Positions 17,756 to 62,524 of a stretch of 64,000 nt of DNA are shown here, in pieces (the stretch's first letter is position 1; the number at the start of each line of letters is the position of its first letter). A program made the position numbers and the translations under genes. The notes under the pieces are model-generated. The model did no database searches, was not told where the DNA came from, and worked only from the letters and a program-made list of their open reading frames with translations. This DNA comes from an uncultured Myxococcales bacterium (lineage in GTDB: Bacteria > Myxococcota_A > UBA9042), in the NCBI GenBank assembly GCA_903840165.1, contig CAIMEY010000029.1:62001-126000 (forward strand). The letters are read 5' to 3'.

Positions 17756-20700
17756 ATGGACACCAGGGAACGGCAGGGTCAACGGGCGAGATGGCCAAGC
17801 ATCCCGCTGGCTTTGTTGGTATTTTCGCCTTTGCGGCGCCTGCGCACGGCCTGGGCCTTGGTCCTGCTCCTCGGCCTTGGGACCCCGCTGCCGGAGGCTT
17901 GGGCCATGGCCCCGAGTACTGAGCAGCAACTCCTTGAAACTTTGAGTCAATCGCTGCTGCGCGCCAAACAACCGACGGCAATTGCCGAGTTGCTGGCAGC
18001 GGCTAGGCTCAGTGGCTCCCTGCCGCCCAGGATGATCATCCACAACCTGCTGCCGGTGCTGAACAAATGGCTGGCCGACCGCAGGATGGCGAACTGGCCC
18101 ATGACCTGGACGCTGCGCAGCTTTGTGCAGCAATGGGCAGCCCGCAGCGGGGATGCAGCGCTGGAGAAGCGCTTGAGCCAGGACACGGCGGACCTGCGCA
18201 ACTGGGCGTGGCTAGGGCCTTTTGGCGATGAACAGGGGTCGGCGTTCGCCCACAGCGGTCCGGTGGAAGCGCGGGCCGCGGAGCCGGTGCGCGCCGATCA
18301 GCCCGTGGCGGGGCGCAATGGGCCGGTCCTCTGGCAACCGGTGCCAGCCGATTTTGTCAGCCCAGGGCAACGCATCCCCTTAGAAGAACTGGTGGAACGG
18401 GCGGCAGACGCCGTCATCTACGTCCAGACGTGGGTCAAGCCCGGGCAGCCTGGCCCGGCCCAACTGCGCCTTGGGGTCGATGGCCGGGTGCGCGTGTGGC
18501 TCGATGGGCGCTTGGTCATGCAGCGCGATGCAAAGCCAGAACTCTATGGGATTGATGATCAATGCCCATCTTTGCCGATGGTCGACACCGCAGAAGTGAC
18601 CCTAAGGGCGGGGTGGCAGCGTCTGCTGGTCAAGTTGGCACCGGCTGGTCCTAGCCTGCCTTTGAGCGCCGGTTTCTTCGATGCCAAGGGCGCTGCTTTG
18701 TCCGTCGAATCAGCCGCTTTGCCGCCAGCGGATGCCTCAACGCCCACCAACGTCGATGCCACTGCGCCAAAGAACCAACCAGCGGCCCAACCGGCTGGAG
18801 TCAATCCACAATCGCCCTCCAAAGCTGCGTCGCCATGGCCGGCCTTGGTGGCCCTGGCTTGGCATGGCTGGCCCATGAACAGCGAATTGAGCGAGCAACT
18901 GCTGGCCGCTACAGCCGATGACCTGCCCGCCGACCCGCAATTGGCCTTGGGCGATGCGATGCTTGCCGGCGAACTTGGCGATCGGATTGACGGTTTGCGA
19001 CGTTGGGCCCTGCGCCTGCCTGACTCGGCAGAACTCCTAGTCGCGCAGGCCGAAGCCCTGGATCAAATGGGGAAAACCACGCAAGCACATCGCCTGTGGC
19101 ACGACTGGGTTGAGATTCACCAGCAACATCCAGAGGATGTCAGCATCCACGCCTGTTCGGTGCGGGTGGCGCTGTGGAACCGCCTGGGGGCCGACCTAGC
19201 TGCCGCGGAATTGCTCGAGAAATGTGGCAAGCGTTGGCCGCAGTCCCCGGCGATCTTGCAAGCGCAACTGCGGTTGGCCCAGGCCCATGACCAACTGGCG
19301 CAGACGGCACACTGGACAGACCTATTGCTTCAGGAAGAACCGGGACGATTAATGCGTCATATGGCGCACTTACAATCCCTCTTTCACCAAAGCGACGATG
19401 CGACACTGGTGGCCATCGCCGAGGGGATTACCAAGCGCTTTGGCCAGCGATCTCGGGCTTTTGAGGCCGTTGGGCAGTTGTTTCTCGCCCAGGACCAGCC
19501 TCAAGCGGCGGCGGCGCTCCTGGCAAGGATACCAGAGAGTCAAGTCCGCGCTTCTACGCTTGATTTGCGCGGCAGGGTTTGGGCGCGGCTGGGACAAACC
19601 CAAGCAGCGCTGACGGCTTGGAAGGCTGCGCTGGCTGCGGCCCCCGCCCGCGCCGATGTGCGCACTCGTCTGCAGTTGCTCAGGCCCGCAGGCGATTTTT
19701 ACGCATGGTATCAACGAGATCTATTGGCCTTGGTCCACAAGGAGAGGTCTGTGCCCCGCAAAGTGCCTCTGGAGCAGCGCTTGAGACAGACGGTGCTGCA
19801 GGTCGTCGGCAATGGGCAGCAGGCGCGTTATGACGCTGAAATCAACTACTTTGGCCCTGGAACCGAGCCCAATCACGACGTGACCATTGACTATGCCCCG
19901 AGCGTTCAGCGCGCAGAAGTGCTTGAAGCTGCTGTGATTCGTGCCGATGGACGTGTTGAGCGCAACATCGCCCAAGAGGCCGAGCAGGTCGGCGACGACG
20001 AGAGCGGCATGTACTTCGATCTCGAGCGAATTGTATTGCATTTCAAGGGGCTCAAAGCCGGTGATAGTGTCATCGTCCAATATAGCGTCCGCGACCTGCA
20101 GCCCACGGCGTTTGGCCTGGTTTTTGGCGAGCTGTTGCAACTCGGCGACATATTCCCGATTCGCGAGACGGACATTGCCGTTCTTCTCCCTGAAAATACG
20201 CCGTTTTATTATGAAGTGCACGACCCAGCACGGCCCGATCAAGCGCCTATCGTCCTGCAAAAACGCAACTTGCCCCGGCATGAAGCCGACCGCGATGACC
20301 CGGGGCCTTGGGACCAGTGGCGCCTGCAGTTGGGCCCTCAAGCAGGCGTAACCAATGAAGAACGAATGCCTGGTGGCACCGATTCTGTGGCCTACCTACA
20401 CATGTCCTCCTTTGCCGATTGGCCCGCGGCGGTGCAGTGGTACCGGACGCTGATGGCCGAAGCCCTGCCCCAGCCGGGGAGCGATGTCGCCCTGCACGAG
20501 ACGGCGCTGCGGCTTACGCAAGGGCTAGATTCCGTAGAGCAAAAGGCACGTGCACTGTACAATTACACGGCGGCTCAAGTGCGCTATGTCGGCCTGGAGT
20601 TTGGCATTCACAGCCTCAAGCCCCACGCGGCGCGCGAGGTCATGCAGCGGCAGTTCGGTGATTGTAAAGACAAAGCGACGCTGCTCGTCGCCCTGCTGGC

Positions 20701-21607
20701 CGAGGTGGGCATTGAGGCGCAGGTCGCCCTGGTGCGCACGGTGGATGAGGGGCGTCTACACGACCGTGTCGCATCTTTGGGCGTTTTCAACCATGCAATC
20801 GCGTACATCCCTGAGTTAGGTTGGTGGCTTGACGCTACCGCGCAGCGACACAGCCCGCTGGAACTACCAGCTGGCGACCGCGAGGGCATGGCGCTGCGGA
20901 TCGTGGGCCCCAAAGCCACAGCGCTGGCGCAGGTTGAGCGCTTGCCCCTGGGGCCGGCGACGTCGCACCAACGGCAGGAGACTGACCGGGTGCAAGTCCA
21001 TGCCGATGGCAGTGCCGACCTAACGATCCAATTGGATTTACAAGGATTACCTGCTGCTGACGTCCGCAGTCGCCTAGGTACGGCCCAGGCGCGCAAGGAG
21101 CACCTGGAACACGATCTGGTCGGGCGATATGCGGGCCTGCAAGTTCTTGATGTAACAACAGAAGGTATCGATCCTTTGGCTGACCATGTCCGCGTACGCA
21201 TCAAGGCCCATGTGCCGCAATGGGCCCAGCCGCGGGCCACGGGCTTGGTGTCGCGGCCCTTGCAGCCAGCAACGCCGTATTTACAAGGGATTGCGGCCGC
21301 CACTAAGCGCGTCCACCCCCTGGTTCTGGACCATGGTATGCAGGATGACCTGACGGTGGAAATCGTGCCGCCGCCGGGTTGGCAGGTCCAGCAGCAGCCG
21401 GCCGACGCCCAAGCGGAACAGGGGCCTCACCAATTTGCCAATCATTGCCAGATGCAGAGCTCCGCGCTGCGCTGCGAGTCTAAGGTTCGTATCGGCGAAC
21501 GGAGAATCGATCCCAAGGATTACAGTGGCTTTCGCGCTTGGCTTGGCAATGTCGACGCGGGCTTACGCGGCGAACTGCGCCTGATGCCGGCAGGAGGCAC
21601 GCCATGA
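17756..21607 (+). CDS. large TPR / DUF3857 / transglutaminase-like protein
   Basis: TPR-like N-terminal half; DUF3857-like beta region; transglutaminase core with Cys (RQFGDCKDKATLLVALL), His (FNHAIAYI) and Asp (WWLDATAQ); start uncertain (17723 or 17756). Confidence 0.78.
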   Translation: MDTRERQGQRARWPSIPLALLVFSPLRRLRTAWALVLLLGLGTPLPEAWAMAPSTEQQLLETLSQSLLRAKQPTAIAELLAAARLSGSLPPRMIIHNLLPVLNKWLADRRMANWPMTWTLRSFVQQWAARSGDAALEKRLSQDTADLRNWAWLGPFGDEQGSAFAHSGPVEARAAEPVRADQPVAGRNGPVLWQPVPADFVSPGQRIPLEELVERAADAVIYVQTWVKPGQPGPAQLRLGVDGRVRVWLDGRLVMQRDAKPELYGIDDQCPSLPMVDTAEVTLRAGWQRLLVKLAPAGPSLPLSAGFFDAKGAALSVESAALPPADASTPTNVDATAPKNQPAAQPAGVNPQSPSKAASPWPALVALAWHGWPMNSELSEQLLAATADDLPADPQLALGDAMLAGELGDRIDGLRRWALRLPDSAELLVAQAEALDQMGKTTQAHRLWHDWVEIHQQHPEDVSIHACSVRVALWNRLGADLAAAELLEKCGKRWPQSPAILQAQLRLAQAHDQLAQTAHWTDLLLQEEPGRLMRHMAHLQSLFHQSDDATLVAIAEGITKRFGQRSRAFEAVGQLFLAQDQPQAAAALLARIPESQVRASTLDLRGRVWARLGQTQAALTAWKAALAAAPARADVRTRLQLLRPAGDFYAWYQRDLLALVHKERSVPRKVPLEQRLRQTVLQVVGNGQQARYDAEINYFGPGTEPNHDVTIDYAPSVQRAEVLEAAVIRADGRVERNIAQEAEQVGDDESGMYFDLERIVLHFKGLKAGDSVIVQYSVRDLQPTAFGLVFGELLQLGDIFPIRETDIAVLLPENTPFYYEVHDPARPDQAPIVLQKRNLPRHEADRDDPGPWDQWRLQLGPQAGVTNEERMPGGTDSVAYLHMSSFADWPAAVQWYRTLMAEALPQPGSDVALHETALRLTQGLDSVEQKARALYNYTAAQVRYVGLEFGIHSLKPHAAREVMQRQFGDCKDKATLLVALLAEVGIEAQVALVRTVDEGRLHDRVASLGVFNHAIAYIPELGWWLDATAQRHSPLELPAGDREGMALRIVGPKATALAQVERLPLGPATSHQRQETDRVQVHADGSADLTIQLDLQGLPAADVRSRLGTAQARKEHLEHDLVGRYAGLQVLDVTTEGIDPLADHVRVRIKAHVPQWAQPRATGLVSRPLQPATPYLQGIAAATKRVHPLVLDHGMQDDLTVEIVPPPGWQVQQQPADAQAEQGPHQFANHCQMQSSALRCESKVRIGERRIDPKDYSGFRAWLGNVDAGLRGELRLMPAGGTP

Positions 21608-24600
21608 AACAGCCAGTGATTGAGCGCAATTGTCGAATTCGCGCGTTGCCTTGGGTGTGGGGCCTCCTGAGCCTGCAGATTGCCTGCTCGGCTCCGCTTG
21701 ATGTCCTTGATCGGCAAGTCGATGTGCCCCTAGCCCGTCGCCAAGCGGCCTCCTGGCAACAGGCCCCGGACACCGCGGCGGCCGGCCATCGGATGGCTGC
21801 GTGGCTCTGTCTGCTGCATGGCGAGGACTGCGGGCAAATTGCTGAACACGCTAAACAAGTTCCCTACGCCGCGGCCGAAGATGCGCTGCTACGCGCCCTT
21901 GCCCTGCAAGGTCAGCACGATGTCGCAGCGAGGGCCCAGGCATGGCTGGACGTCTTGGCCGTTCCGGCACCGGAGGCGGTCCATACAGTTGCGGCCCAAG
22001 CACTTGCACGCCTCGCTGTGCGGGACCGGTCTGCGGTGGTCCACGTGCTGCAAGCAAGGCACTCTGTGGTGCGAGACGCCCTGCAAGCACATGACTCTTT
22101 TGAACAATGGCGCAGATGGCAGGCCTTGGGCCCCCTGCTGACCCAAGCGGCGCACGCATCGCTGCCCGCAGTGCCGGCCGTGCAGTTGGATGTCCAGGTC
22201 TATCTTCCTGTTATTTCAAGGCGTCTACACACAGGTCTCCTGGACCTGCAGGTCAGCGCCGTGGACCCGCCCCTGGTCCCAACCGAGTCCGGCGGTCAAT
22301 GGTTGGCCCTGCCTCCCCTGAGTCAAGACGTGAGCACCACGCAACTGGGTGATCTTTATCCAATCCCGGTGCGCGACCCCGGCATTTGTGCGCTCAAGGT
22401 GCAACTACATCCGCCGCGACCAGGGGCCTACACCTTGGTGCTGCAGGCGCCGCGCGGCGTTCGGGCGTGGCTCGGCCAACAACCGTTGGAACTACAACGT
22501 GATGGTTCTACCCGGACCTGGAAGTCCGAACTGATGGTGGGCACAGACCCGGCCATTCTGCACCTGGCCGTAGCGGCCGCTTCATCCTCAGAATTGTTAA
22601 GCATTGCCGTTCTTCCTAGCCAATCCCGTCTGAGTCAAGGCACGCCGTGGGCCCAGACCCTGGCCGACCTGGTGCAAGCGCTGCGCGACCCAGATGGTCC
22701 AGCGAGGGGGCGGCTGGAGCGGGCGTTCACGGGGCCTGCCGCGGCCTTGGTGACCTTGGAAGTCGCGGATCCGGGCACGAGCGCGTCGGCACTGAGCGAT
22801 GCCGCAGACCGCGTTCTAGGGCTATTTCCCGCCCACATGGAGGCCCAGTTGACGCGAATTGCGCAAACGCGGGACGCCGGCAATCCGACGCTGGCGCTAC
22901 AAATGCTGCGCCAGCTGGGACCGGTGCTGCCTGCGCCGCCGGGACCACCGGAATTACGCATCGCAGTAGCTGAATCTCGCAGCGACCTGCTGATGGAACG
23001 CGCCCATGTGTTGCTGGCGGTGGGTCTGGCCGAAGAGGCGGCCCGCGTCGTCCGCCAAGCGTATGCAGCCCAACCGAATGATTGTGAAACCTTTTCTCTG
23101 GCGATGGCAGTCGGACAGGACAGCCTCGACCGTGCCCTGCTGCGCCATTTGCTGCAATCGCCACCGTCCTGCCCCGGTCAATCCCTTGTTTTAGCAAGGG
23201 GTTATGCGGCCATCGGTCAGCACGCCTTGGCCACAGCGCAGTTGCAGCGGGCCATGCGGCAGCCTTCGCTTGCGCGCGATGCCGTCCGTTTGTTGCAGGA
23301 GAACGCCGATGCGCTTGGTGAACCTGCACCGGCAATTCCGTCCTGGTTACAGGATGCTTCCGATCCGGCGTGGCGGGCGGCGCAGCAAGCAGCAGGGCGC
23401 CATGACCACCCGGCAGAGCACCGATATCTCAGCAAAATACTTAGCGATCCTGGCCAATCTCTGACCGCCAAACAAAGAGCGCTGCAAGCTGGAGCCCCGG
23501 CGCCATGGCAGCCCTTTGTGCGCAAGGGCGAGGAAATTGCGGCAAAGACCGATGATCCGCAGTTGATCCAAGGGGCTTCGACCGCATGGCTCCTCGACCA
23601 AGAACTGGTGGTGCTTCTGCGCGGTGGCGGGGCGATTCGTCGCGTTCACCAAGTCTTACGCGTGCTTGCCGACGAAGCGGCCGAAGGCGTCGGCGAGGTG
23701 CGGGTGGCCGAAGGGGCCGACCTCGAGATGGCGCGAACGCTGCTGCCGGACGGTTCGACCGTCCTGCCGGCAGAAACTGCGGACAAAGACACCATATCCC
23801 TACGCGCAGTTGCCGCCGGAACCTCCGTCGAATTCGCGCAAATTGCCTATGTTTCCGCAGATGATCCCGCCACGGGTGCCACACGATTGCCGAGCTTTGC
23901 CCTGCAAGCGGCGGACAGCCCGACCGTCCTGTCCGAATACATTGTCCTTGTTCCGCAAGGGGTTATACCCCAATGGAATGTCAGTGCGACAGCGCCAGCC
24001 GCGATTCGCAGCGAATTGCCGGGCTACACTGCCTATGTCTTTAGAAATCAGAATGTTCCTCGGGGCCACAATGAGCCGCGGGCGGTACGTCCGGAGACAG
24101 CCCTACCTTCGGTCCGGGTCACGGCGCAAGCGGATTTGCAATCTATTTTAGGGCCTTGGGCAGAGGCGCTGGCCTCCGCAGAGCAGATTCGCGATGCCGA
24201 CCTTGACCGCTGGGAGGCCTTTGCCCGCCGCCAACCGCCCGGGACCAGTCGCTGGCAGGCCGTTGCTCAGCGAATTGCTCAAGCGATCCAGCAGGGTCCA
24301 GAAGGTGGGCCTCCGGGGCGGCCCGATCAAACCCTGCAGAATCAGAAGGGAGACCGCGCTGCCCTGCTTTACGCGCTGGCCCGCCGCCTTGGTGAGGACG
24401 CGTGCTTGGTGCGGGTTCTACCATTGGCGCGAACGCCCGCACAAAAGCCTGAAGATCCAGATGATTGGGCGATGCAAGTCGTGCAGATTCGCCCGACCCA
24501 GGCGTCGGCGCCGACCGAGCCGCACAAAGATACGCCGACCGAGCCGCACAAAGATACACAGAAGGACCCGCACAGCGCCCAGCCCACAGGCGCTCAACTG

Positions 24601-25368
24601 CCTGATATTTGGTATGATCCTGGGCTCGAGAATGGCATCATCAACCACTTGCGCGCGGGACTTCGTGGCCGGCAGGGGCTCCAAGTGGGCTGCAAGGCGC
24701 TCAATCCCCACATCACGCTACCGCGTCTGGGGGATGGCCGGGATCTGCGTACGATTACAGGGGATTTGACATGGAATGCCGACGGCTCTGTGCAGGGCGT
24801 CGTGCGGGAAGTCCTATCGGGCTCTTTGGCTGCGCTGTTGCGGACTTGGCTGGTGGGTGCCAACGAACAGACTCAGGCTGAAGTGCTACAAAACTTAGTC
24901 GGTTCAAGTTATTCCGGCTTAACCGTACTGTGGCAGGAAATTCATGGGCTCAGCGGCGGGTCCGACGACACGCCCGTGACCTTGGCGTATACCGTGCAGG
25001 GTACAGCCTCGAAATCACGAGAAAATGCCCTAGACCTAGCCCTATACCCGGAAATGCTGGGGCAGACCTATGCAGGCCTGCACGAGCGGAGCACAGCCCT
25101 CTTGTTTAGTCATTCCCTGGATTTACGGGTCGAACTGCGGGTCCATGGACCTGCGACGCAGCACCTACTGGCGCCGGCAGCGGTCCATGTCGACCACCCG
25201 CTGATCCACTATGACTGCGAATCTACTGTAGAAAATAGTTCTGTTACCTTGCGCAAACGGGCCACGGCGACGCCAGCGGTGGTAGAACCTTCCCAATATC
25301 AAGGGCTTGCTATCTTGCTGCGCCAGACCGATGCCGCCGACGCCGTGCGATTGACGCGCGGGCCTTAG
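21604..25368 (+). CDS. large lipoprotein, DUF3857/transglutaminase-like paralogue with degenerate catalytic core
   Basis: ATGA overlap with upstream gene; lipobox-like LQIACS; DUF3857-like LVVLLRGGGAIRRVHQVLRVLADEAAEGVGEV; region equivalent to transglutaminase core reads QNQKGDRAALLYALARRLG. Confidence 0.65.
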   Translation: MKQPVIERNCRIRALPWVWGLLSLQIACSAPLDVLDRQVDVPLARRQAASWQQAPDTAAAGHRMAAWLCLLHGEDCGQIAEHAKQVPYAAAEDALLRALALQGQHDVAARAQAWLDVLAVPAPEAVHTVAAQALARLAVRDRSAVVHVLQARHSVVRDALQAHDSFEQWRRWQALGPLLTQAAHASLPAVPAVQLDVQVYLPVISRRLHTGLLDLQVSAVDPPLVPTESGGQWLALPPLSQDVSTTQLGDLYPIPVRDPGICALKVQLHPPRPGAYTLVLQAPRGVRAWLGQQPLELQRDGSTRTWKSELMVGTDPAILHLAVAAASSSELLSIAVLPSQSRLSQGTPWAQTLADLVQALRDPDGPARGRLERAFTGPAAALVTLEVADPGTSASALSDAADRVLGLFPAHMEAQLTRIAQTRDAGNPTLALQMLRQLGPVLPAPPGPPELRIAVAESRSDLLMERAHVLLAVGLAEEAARVVRQAYAAQPNDCETFSLAMAVGQDSLDRALLRHLLQSPPSCPGQSLVLARGYAAIGQHALATAQLQRAMRQPSLARDAVRLLQENADALGEPAPAIPSWLQDASDPAWRAAQQAAGRHDHPAEHRYLSKILSDPGQSLTAKQRALQAGAPAPWQPFVRKGEEIAAKTDDPQLIQGASTAWLLDQELVVLLRGGGAIRRVHQVLRVLADEAAEGVGEVRVAEGADLEMARTLLPDGSTVLPAETADKDTISLRAVAAGTSVEFAQIAYVSADDPATGATRLPSFALQAADSPTVLSEYIVLVPQGVIPQWNVSATAPAAIRSELPGYTAYVFRNQNVPRGHNEPRAVRPETALPSVRVTAQADLQSILGPWAEALASAEQIRDADLDRWEAFARRQPPGTSRWQAVAQRIAQAIQQGPEGGPPGRPDQTLQNQKGDRAALLYALARRLGEDACLVRVLPLARTPAQKPEDPDDWAMQVVQIRPTQASAPTEPHKDTPTEPHKDTQKDPHSAQPTGAQLPDIWYDPGLENGIINHLRAGLRGRQGLQVGCKALNPHITLPRLGDGRDLRTITGDLTWNADGSVQGVVREVLSGSLAALLRTWLVGANEQTQAEVLQNLVGSSYSGLTVLWQEIHGLSGGSDDTPVTLAYTVQGTASKSRENALDLALYPEMLGQTYAGLHERSTALLFSHSLDLRVELRVHGPATQHLLAPAAVHVDHPLIHYDCESTVENSSVTLRKRATATPAVVEPSQYQGLAILLRQTDAADAVRLTRGP
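24510..24557. repeat. perfect 24-bp tandem duplication encoding PTEPHKDT x2
   Basis: gccgaccgagccgcacaaagatac repeated exactly twice. Confidence 0.9.
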
Positions 25369-25410: not shown

Positions 25411-27096
25411 CTAGGATTCCAGATTCTTGGCCAGTTGATGCAATACCTTCGCGGCTTCGCCCGCAGCTTGAACCCGGTTCTGAAGCAGAGTCTGGGTCGC
25501 TGAGGCGGCGCTGACAGCATTAGCCAATTCCATTTTCTTTTCAGCCACTTCTGCTGCAAGCCTTGCGCAATCGGCCCGCAATTGGCTGGCTTCCGCTTGC
25601 GCTGCACTCACGCGCGCCCCTTCCTGGGCCAAAGCTGCTGCTGCCGCGTGATTTTGGGCCTGCAATTGCGCAACTTGTTCACGGAGTTGAATGGCCTCGA
25701 GCGCTGCTTCTGGCCGGTGCAAGTCCTGCAAGCGGTTGACTTCACTGCGCAGTTGCTCATTCTCACCCTCAAGCCGATCGGCCACGGACGAGACTTCTTG
25801 CAATTTCTCCATAAATCCGCTAAGTTCAGACAGCATCGCCGTCGCGCCACTGGTCGGACGATTGCGGGCCGGCAGGGGCGAAGCGGCCTGGACTTCGGCT
25901 GCTGGCGCAACGACGACCGCAGCCTGAGCAACGGGCGTGGGAGTCGCCGCAACCGGAGTCGGAGCCGGAGCTGGAGTCGGAGCTGGAGTCGGAGCTGGAG
26001 TCGGCGCTGGAGTCGGAGTCGCTGCAACCACTGGCGGAGCAACCGCGGCCGGCGCAACCGCAGGCTCAGCGGTTGGTTCTGTCGGCAATTCCTCATCCTC
26101 TTCAAGAACTTCTAGCAATTCCTCTGCGAGTTCTTCAGAAGCGGTGGGCGGGGCCTCTGGCGCAGTGATCGCCACGGGTTCAGCGGCAGTTGCAACGAGT
26201 TCCGCGTCGAATTCCTCGACCAAATCATCCATTTCCAGCACTTCCTCAAGTTCGGTCGCCACGGCCGGGCTGGCTGGGGATGGCGCGGAATCACCTTCAG
26301 ATTCTGCCTGCAATTCTTCAACAAGCTCAATGGAATCGAGGTCTTCCAGGGCCTCAGAGCTATCTAGGCTTTCGACTTCAGCAAGATCGACCGGCTCAAG
26401 TTCCTCGACTAGGTCATCGATGGATAGCTCCAAGGTGGAACCCGACAACTCCATGAGTTCACTAGCAGAAATCTCCGAGTCTTCGTCATCCTCGATGAGG
26501 TCATCCTCCAGAATTTCGGCATCCTCAAGGTCTTCACTGCCCAAGGCGTGCGCCTGATCCGAGTCAAAGGCTGCACCATCAAAGGCACCGAGCAGGTCGC
26601 CCGGCGTCGGTGGCGGCTGATCGGTGCCGTCGTCGAGCTCAAGGATGCTCATCTCGCGCGTGGCGTCCTCGTTGCCCAGAGCAGCCAGAGCATCCATCGG
26701 AATTTCATCAAGATCTTCGGTCATTGCCCGGCTCTTGCCGGTCCAGAGTTCCTCGGCCATGGGCACCAAGTCTTTGCCGATCCGCGACTGCACCAAGTAA
26801 CGATCCGCTGTAATTTTGCCCTTTTGGTGGCGTTTGACTTCGTCACGCTGGTCGTCGCGGTAGACCACCAGCAGCTTGGGATCGGTTTGGCCTTCGCGGC
26901 GCAACGTCGACACCATGGCCAAGCTCCGCCTCAGCGTCGGGCCAAAAACCACAAGCGCGACCTTATGTTCCGTCAGGGCGCGCATGGCCTCGTCGATGGT
27001 GCCAACAACCACCTGGGGCGCAGAAATCGCTTGCTGCAAGGCGCGTTCCAGGATCTTGGTGCCACCCACCAGCAGGACAACGGATTCGGTCGACAT
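25411..27096 (-). CDS. pseudo-receiver-like domain + acidic linker + Pro/Ala/Thr repeats + coiled coil protein
   Basis: N-terminal alternating alpha/beta region (ESVVLLVGGTKILERALQQAI...KVALVVFGPTLRRSLAMV...KLLVVYRDDQ); Glu/Asp-rich middle; PTPA repeats; C-terminal heptad-like coiled coil; ATG at 27096. Confidence 0.7.
   Translation of the reverse strand: MSTESVVLLVGGTKILERALQQAISAPQVVVGTIDEAMRALTEHKVALVVFGPTLRRSLAMVSTLRREGQTDPKLLVVYRDDQRDEVKRHQKGKITADRYLVQSRIGKDLVPMAEELWTGKSRAMTEDLDEIPMDALAALGNEDATREMSILELDDGTDQPPPTPGDLLGAFDGAAFDSDQAHALGSEDLEDAEILEDDLIEDDEDSEISASELMELSGSTLELSIDDLVEELEPVDLAEVESLDSSEALEDLDSIELVEELQAESEGDSAPSPASPAVATELEEVLEMDDLVEEFDAELVATAAEPVAITAPEAPPTASEELAEELLEVLEEDEELPTEPTAEPAVAPAAVAPPVVAATPTPAPTPAPTPAPTPAPAPTPVAATPTPVAQAAVVVAPAAEVQAASPLPARNRPTSGATAMLSELSGFMEKLQEVSSVADRLEGENEQLRSEVNRLQDLHRPEAALEAIQLREQVAQLQAQNHAAAAALAQEGARVSAAQAEASQLRADCARLAAEVAEKKMELANAVSAASATQTLLQNRVQAAGEAAKVLHQLAKNLES
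25954..26020. repeat. 12-bp tandem repeat (GGAGCTGGAGTC-type) encoding (Pro-Thr-Pro-Ala)n on the minus strand
   Basis: read directly from sequence within the linker of the minus-strand CDS. Confidence 0.85.
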
Positions 27097-27496
27097 CGGC
27101 AACTCCACACGCGCAAGGCGAGGCACGGCAGGCGGCTGGTCGGCGAGCCCCAAGTCCTTGACGCAGTTGCGCAAAGGGTCGGGATCGGCGGGCCATGGCC
27201 GCAACGGTGAACCCGCAGCAGCGGGCTGGGAGGGCTCTATACCCTCTTGAAATATAAAGAGAACGCGGCACAGACAACCCGCAACGAGCTGGGAGCTGCG
27301 CCTCCTAGTGTCCTGCGACTGGGCCGGTGCGGTCAAGCGGGACCTCATTGCCTGGGCCCGATCGCTGCCTTGCCGGTCCAATTGTTTGAATAGACAATCT
27401 TTTTATCAACATCGCGGTGAATTGACCGCCGAGTTCCTGCAGAGTCGCCCCGGGCACACTTGCCAACGGCGCCTCGCTTGGGCGACCCTTGGAGTC

Positions 27497-61939: not shown

Positions 61940-62524
61940 ATGTGCTATGACAAACAAAACGGGCGAACTGCCCAGGACTTTCGCCCCTTCGGCCGTGTAC
62001 GTCTCGCGTCGCGGCTGGCGCTCGGGCTGACGGCCCTTTTGACGCCGCTGCACGCCGGGGCCGCGGAACCCGCGACCATCGAACTCGCTATGGCGGCACA
62101 ACAAGCGGATGCGATTGCGGTTTACCAAGTTGGCGATCCACCGTCGACGGTCATTGCCGTACCCGTACCGGTGCCCAAGGGGCAGGCCGCCGTGCCTGCG
62201 TTCCAGAGGTATGTTCGACATCTTGAACGGAAACAGCTGGTTTGGGGACGGCCACCTCAGAGTCTGCGCGTCGACGAGCCACACTGGCTAGCGCACCTGC
62301 AGGCGCACAAACGCTGCCAACTAGAGAAGATCTGTCACGAATTGGAGGAGATCTCCTACGTCTCGACCTTGGCCCACGAGCCCAAGCCCGGCGATCAAGT
62401 GCTGGTACTCCTGCGCAAGCTGCCTGGCAATCATTGGGAATTACTTGCAGATCGCGCCATGGACTCTGCCGACCGCGTGCCCGAACTCAAGGCCCTGCTG
62501 GCAAAGCGGGGCAAGCACAATTAG
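61940..62524 (+). CDS. exported protein of unknown function
   Basis: signal-like segment RLALGLTALLTPLHAGAAE; globular remainder. Confidence 0.5.
   Translation: MCYDKQNGRTAQDFRPFGRVRLASRLALGLTALLTPLHAGAAEPATIELAMAAQQADAIAVYQVGDPPSTVIAVPVPVPKGQAAVPAFQRYVRHLERKQLVWGRPPQSLRVDEPHWLAHLQAHKRCQLEKICHELEEISYVSTLAHEPKPGDQVLVLLRKLPGNHWELLADRAMDSADRVPELKALLAKRGKHN

Follow-up and report, generated by a model that had tools for sequence, protein, structure and literature searches.

A transglutaminase-like enzyme and a probable pseudoenzyme paralogue encoded by overlapping genes in Myxococcota

In a 64,000-nucleotide stretch of contig CAIMEY010000029.1 from an uncultured Myxococcales bacterium (positions 62,001 to 126,000, forward strand; hereafter the window), two very large genes overlap end to start and encode proteins of similar build, gene 1 with a transglutaminase-type Cys-His-Asp triad and gene 2 apparently without one. 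Why would a bacterium keep, directly behind what looks like a working enzyme, a second copy that seems unable to catalyze anything? A preliminary description of the locus, made from the letters of the window, proposed a catalytic and a non-catalytic partner, possibly forming an envelope complex, and its coordinates, reading frames and ATGA overlap proved exact on re-reading (Table 1). Our analysis points to an ancient duplicate of enzyme and pseudoenzyme, in which gene 2 is most probably a non-catalytic subunit that tethers and assists gene 1.

The motifs FGDCKDKATLL, FNHAIAYI and WWLDATA had been read as a complete Cys/His/Asp set in gene 1, and checking the codons identified these residues as C970, H1013 and D1026. 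The full triad is present in 119/119 gene-1 homologues scored. Many of these loci were picked by a GDCKD pattern that itself contains the Cys, and the taxa named here were reached through gene 1; among loci found with no Cys-containing pattern, the triad is present in 50/50 gene-1 alignment rows. The signal peptide of gene 1 and its orthologues is of the ordinary Sec type, without a lipobox, and the gene-1 protein is most likely a Sec-exported transglutaminase-like cysteine enzyme, be it a peptidase, a deamidase or a cross-linker.

The corresponding segments of gene 2 read QNQKGDRAALL, WAMQVVQI and IWYDPGL. No Cys occurs at the active site in any of the 92 gene-2 proteins covering it (0/92), and what is conserved there instead is Gly-[Asn/Asp/Ser]-Arg, with G916 in 92/92 and R918 in 81/92. 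The Cys had at first been aligned with Lys915, which turned out to be an artefact of register: the K915 column is not conserved (R, K, S, T, Q, A or E among the homologues), and Arg918 stands opposite the Cys when the program DSSP is applied to the AlphaFold models, where G324-D325-C326 of gene 1 lies opposite G287-D288-R289 of gene 2 (fragment numbering). Both models run through a helix, a short strand and then the active-site helix, whose first residue is C326 for gene 1 and R289 for gene 2. Aligning the two families with hhalign gave a 3-residue deletion over DCK in gene 2. Either Cys970 faces Arg918 and the gene-2 helix is three residues shorter, as the models suggest, or three residues have been deleted; judged from the alignments, the nucleophile of gene 2 is gone under either register. 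The other two positions fared unevenly. Met957, matched in the preliminary description to the catalytic His, does begin the strand of His1013 in the models, but its column is variable and holds His in 8/92 proteins, and Asp1005 of IWYDPGL, taken as a retained triad residue, does match Asp1026, but only 52/92 homologues keep an Asp there. Because the nucleophilic Cys is missing gene 2 is presumably inactive, and its catalytic loss is strongly supported by the aligned homologues.

BLASTP found weak similarity between the two proteins (24% identity, E=2e-4, C-terminal), and paralogy was therefore tested with profiles. C-half alignments of 29 gene-1 (A1) and 22 gene-2 (A2) sequences matched each other in hhalign with a probability of 100 (E=1.6e-40, 571 columns), and the N-halves, consisting of a beta-sandwich and TPR repeats, matched with a probability of 97.6 (E=3e-12, 366 columns). 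Homology by profiles spans both halves, in agreement with the TPR-like N-halves and DUF3857-like middles first noticed in both proteins. AlphaFold2 models of the C-halves had predicted local distance difference test (pLDDT) values of 91.6 for gene 2 and 91.4 for gene 1, and Foldseek returned 3kd4 as the best Protein Data Bank (PDB) match of both (E=2.3e-24 for gene 2, 1.1e-32 for gene 1), with a template modelling (TM) score of 0.67 by target length for gene 2; a pair with no common fold, envisaged as one way in which the proposal could fail, is not what we found. A tree built by a quick method from 37 gene-1 and 35 gene-2 rows put the two genes on separate sides of one branch (support 99), which takes one change, with 0/500 shuffles as low. 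Such a clean two-clade split is more easily explained by a single loss after an old duplication than by repeated decay. By these comparisons gene 2 is a full-length paralogue of gene 1.

The divergence of gene 2 is also seen in Pfam. Gene 1 passes the cut-offs for DUF3857 (PF12969) and Transglut_core (PF01841), whereas the window's gene 2, taken alone, passes no gathering threshold among these two and DUF3858 (PF12970), with no Transglut_core match. NCBIfam gave nothing above cut-off. A Myxococcus gene-2 homologue is above the cut-offs for DUF3857 and DUF3858, and it too has no Transglut_core match at the thresholds used. Neither the gene-1 nor the gene-2 protein matches the BTLCP (LapG/HvyA) family in Pfam. 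Inside the pseudo-active-site domain gene 2 carries an insert, PTEPHKDTPTEPHKDTQKDPHS, that is peculiar to the window's genome and absent from all aligned relatives.

Gene 2 had been described as the only clear lipoprotein of the two, and this holds, with a lipobox in gene 2 and a Sec signal peptide lacking one in gene 1. As the Gln at position -3 of the window's lipobox is atypical, lipidation is predicted mainly from orthologues of gene 2, most of which have a canonical lipobox (LAAC, LTAC, FAGC). Taken together, gene 2 is a predicted lipoprotein and gene 1 a predicted secreted protein. We propose that gene 1 would be exported via Sec as a cysteine enzyme with a complete Cys-His-Asp triad, and that gene 2, a putative lipoprotein whose nucleophilic Cys is permanently lost, in most cases together with the His, and whose loop has a conserved Gly-x-Arg of its own, would tether gene 1 to the membrane and would scaffold it, activate it or position its substrate. 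Translational coupling would make the two proteins together. We infer direct binding between them, a regulatory role for gene 2 and an envelope location for the pair, the last because of the signal peptide and the lipobox only. The original partner-pair proposal is supported by the intact versus lost triad, the conserved linkage and the co-occurrence; the complex itself is a proposal.

Linkage was counted at the 100 gene-1 loci whose downstream sequence reaches 2.5 kb or more, and gene 2 follows gene 1 on the same strand in 85/100. A lipobox start was assignable in 63 of the 85 pairs, and 45/63 have an NTGA overlap. Co-occurrence, put forward at the outset as a check, came out in favour of the pair: both genes are present in 27 of 36 related genomes, neither in 7 and one only in 2, the locus in the two discordant genomes being truncated at a contig end (Fisher p=7e-6, with no correction for relatedness). 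A gene-2 profile match was obtained in 150/284 Myxococcota genomes, the weaker ones perhaps being gene-1 proteins or other members of DUF3857, and the pair is also found in Acidobacteriota (loci L149-L151, L177 and L201, plus further pairs). That the pair is kept across myxobacteria and some acidobacteria suggests that gene 2, though dead as an enzyme, is needed as a partner rather than being leftover debris.

In the Myxococcaceae and Archangiaceae (Myxococcus, Archangium, Pyxidicoccus and similar) gene 1 is solitary and gene 2 is unlinked yet kept. All eight genomes searched that have a solitary gene 1 carry a gene-2 homologue at another place, for example ~45 kb away in Myxococcus qinghaiensis and ~107 kb away in Archangium, and the unlinked copies that were read have no GDC and mostly carry G[SN]R. 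The solitary gene 1 of these families was considered as an argument against partnership and rejected, given that gene 2 is found elsewhere in the genomes. Co-retention after unlinking is the best evidence here for a joint function beyond co-transcription.

The alternative that survives best is that gene 2 is a pseudoenzyme acting alone, an envelope lipoprotein whose fold is reused as a binding module for a glycan, a peptide or another protein, having its pathway and transcript in common with gene 1. The TPR and beta-sandwich N-halves of both proteins would suit binding, gene 2 has a conserved Gly-x-Arg of its own, and the unlinked genes of the Myxococcaceae and Archangiaceae count in favour of this explanation. 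We nevertheless consider it less likely, since the genes are nearly always jointly present or absent, are adjacent at the great majority of the loci counted, many with overlapping ends, and are similarly conserved within the bacterial family. Three points do weigh against a dedicated partnership. Operon structure and co-occurrence are also compatible with two independent envelope proteins in one pathway; the separation by tens of kb or more in the Myxococcaceae and Archangiaceae means that coupled translation is not essential; and a minority of gene-2 proteins, for example in acidobacteria, no longer have the Arg motif (Pro, Ser, Gln and others stand there).

We give very little weight to the idea that gene 2 has remained an enzyme by moving its nucleophile or using another one. 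Papain-like enzymes are able to move catalytic residues (PMC10318531), and the triad Asp persisting in about half of the homologues and the conserved Arg at the loop could be read in this way, but tallying columns over 96 gene-2 homologues revealed no suitable alternative catalytic Cys or His, the other finding that the preliminary description had named as able to overturn its proposal. The commonest Cys column is occupied in 23/88, no Cys column exceeds 27% and the site itself has none; C934 is mostly confined to the window's bacterial family and sits on a strand, not on the active-site helix; and the best conserved His, H682, is in another domain, DUF3857. The notion of a decaying, functionless duplicate or recent pseudogene, to which the weak Pfam score and the low identity where BLAST aligns might lend some colour, is refuted by phylum-wide conservation, as the frame is open at full length in dozens of genera, C-half identity to the nearest genera is 46-53% and comparable with gene 1, the lipobox and motif are conserved, and gene 2 is kept even when unlinked.

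The reading of gene 2 as a non-catalytic partner of gene 1 can be set beside an independent tandem of smaller DUF3857/transglutaminase-like proteins (~650-675 amino acids, aa) in the same bacterial family as the window (genomes G001 and G004), a type of pair that is absent from the window's own genome. The first member has NGDCKDKA, and the second has SGDAADKA or NGTAAEKT with the His and Asp kept. Two more genomes (loci L230 and L231) have a Cys-less member of this type, with RATAAQKA and RGTPAEKA and again the His and Asp kept, bringing the Cys-less protein to 4/4 genomes where the second type was found; a tandem partner is established for L223 and L224. It is conceivable, though we hold the idea tentatively, that pairing an active DUF3857-transglutaminase and a Cys-less paralogue is a general envelope design reached more than once, in the 1250-aa pair of Myxococcota and Acidobacteriota and in the 650-aa tandem, and that Gly-x-Arg is a conserved ligand or activation site by which the anchored pseudoenzyme switches on the exported enzyme.

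Table 1. Positions of the two genes, their domains and key residues in the window, and of the second-type tandem pairs at other loci.
Feature	Coordinates	Strand	Remarks
Gene 1	17756..21607	+	Predicted exported TPR + beta-sandwich + DUF3857 + transglutaminase-like + DUF3858-like protein, 1283 aa; signal peptide, no lipobox
Gene 1, DUF3857 domain (aa 706-825)	19871..20230	+	Pfam PF12969, E=1e-14, 55.4 bits (cut-off 24.6)
Gene 1, Transglut_core (aa 916-1023)	20501..20824	+	Pfam PF01841, E=2e-9, 38.1 bits (cut-off 23)
Gene 1, catalytic Cys970	20663..20665	+	First residue of active-site helix; 119/119 homologues
Gene 1, catalytic His1013	20792..20794	+	119/119 homologues
Gene 1, catalytic Asp1026	20831..20833	+	119/119 homologues
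ATGA stop/start overlap of gene 1 and gene 2	21604..21607	+	AGGAGG, Shine-Dalgarno-like, just upstream (by eye)
Gene 2	21604..25368	+	1254 aa; paralogue of gene 1, predicted lipoprotein; pseudo-transglutaminase without the Cys
Gene 2, predicted lipidated Cys28	21685..21687	+	LQIAC, atypical Gln at -3; orthologues mostly canonical
Gene 2, divergent DUF3857 domain (aa 730-819)	23791..24060	+	Pfam E=0.021, 15.3 bits (cut-off 24.6), sub-threshold
Gene 2, K915-G916-D917-R918	24346..24357	+	Replaces GDCKDK active-site loop; G 92/92, R 81/92, Cys 0/92
Gene 2, Met957	24472..24474	+	At catalytic-His position; starts strand in models; variable column, His 8/92
Gene 2, low-complexity repetitive insert PTEPHKDTPTEPHKDTQKDPHS	24505..24590	+	Between His and Asp strands; pLDDT <50 in parts
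Gene 2, Asp1005	24616..24618	+	Equivalent of triad Asp; Asp in 52/92 homologues
Second-type tandem pair	L223:3947-7848	+	First member intact, second Cys-less
Second-type tandem pair	L224:2818-7007	+	First member intact, second Cys-less

In the window the pair forms a two-gene unit, with a glutathione synthetase gene (gshB) divergent upstream, an arrangement found again at 7 loci, and a convergent gene downstream. A larger operon was considered and rejected, as flanking genes differ among genera and no third gene is constant. On the minus strand at 25411-27381 lies a gene for a protein with a response-regulator-like start, a long acidic and Ala/Pro-rich middle and a coiled-coil end; it has no Pfam match above cut-off, by eye the protein resembles pseudo-receiver proteins of the FrzS type, and relatives are found in loci L042 and L045. 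At two loci of genus g5 (L044 and L046) a short PAAR-like protein is encoded just upstream of gene 1, near genes resembling a respiratory complex (by eye). Locus L154 (BNCN01000002.1), titled Comamonas sp. KCTC 72670, has a gene-1 locus very like that of Myxococcus sp. CA023 (L156), and the record is probably misnamed.

The closest solved structure is 3kd4 (BDI_1141 from Parabacteroides distasonis, 'putative protease'), which is the top match by structure for both proteins and also by sequence profile. It has the DUF3857-transglutaminase-like-DUF3858 architecture common to the C-halves of gene 1 and gene 2, but at ~505 residues it is without the TPR/beta-sandwich half that both carry. Nothing informative on the function of DUF3857 or 3kd4 was found in the open-access literature. 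Also comparable are BTLCP proteins (LapG, HvyA) and TgpA, which are extracytoplasmic Cys-His-Asp enzymes, as gene 1 is predicted to be; the function of HvyA, a periplasmic BTLCP protein, requires its triad (PMC4241560). By annotation these are other families, and they lack DUF3857, DUF3858 and a pseudoenzyme paralogue. For gene 2 the nearest parallels are eukaryotic: the inactive transglutaminase-like or papain-like proteins EPB42, CC2D2A, FBXO21 and menin keep the fold, have lost the Cys and serve as scaffolds (PMC10318531). Their domain architecture is unrelated to that of gene 2, and nothing in that paper presents them as co-retained with an active paralogue and translationally coupled to it. 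A search of the open-access literature yielded no description of an inactive paralogue encoded together with a transglutaminase-like enzyme in a bacterium.

Many bacteria have DUF3857-transglutaminase proteins, which appear to be functionally uncharacterised, the domain being barely named in the open-access literature searched. An active/inactive pair co-retained across a phylum offers a genetic handle on what these proteins do, and would give pseudoenzyme research a bacterial example with translational coupling.

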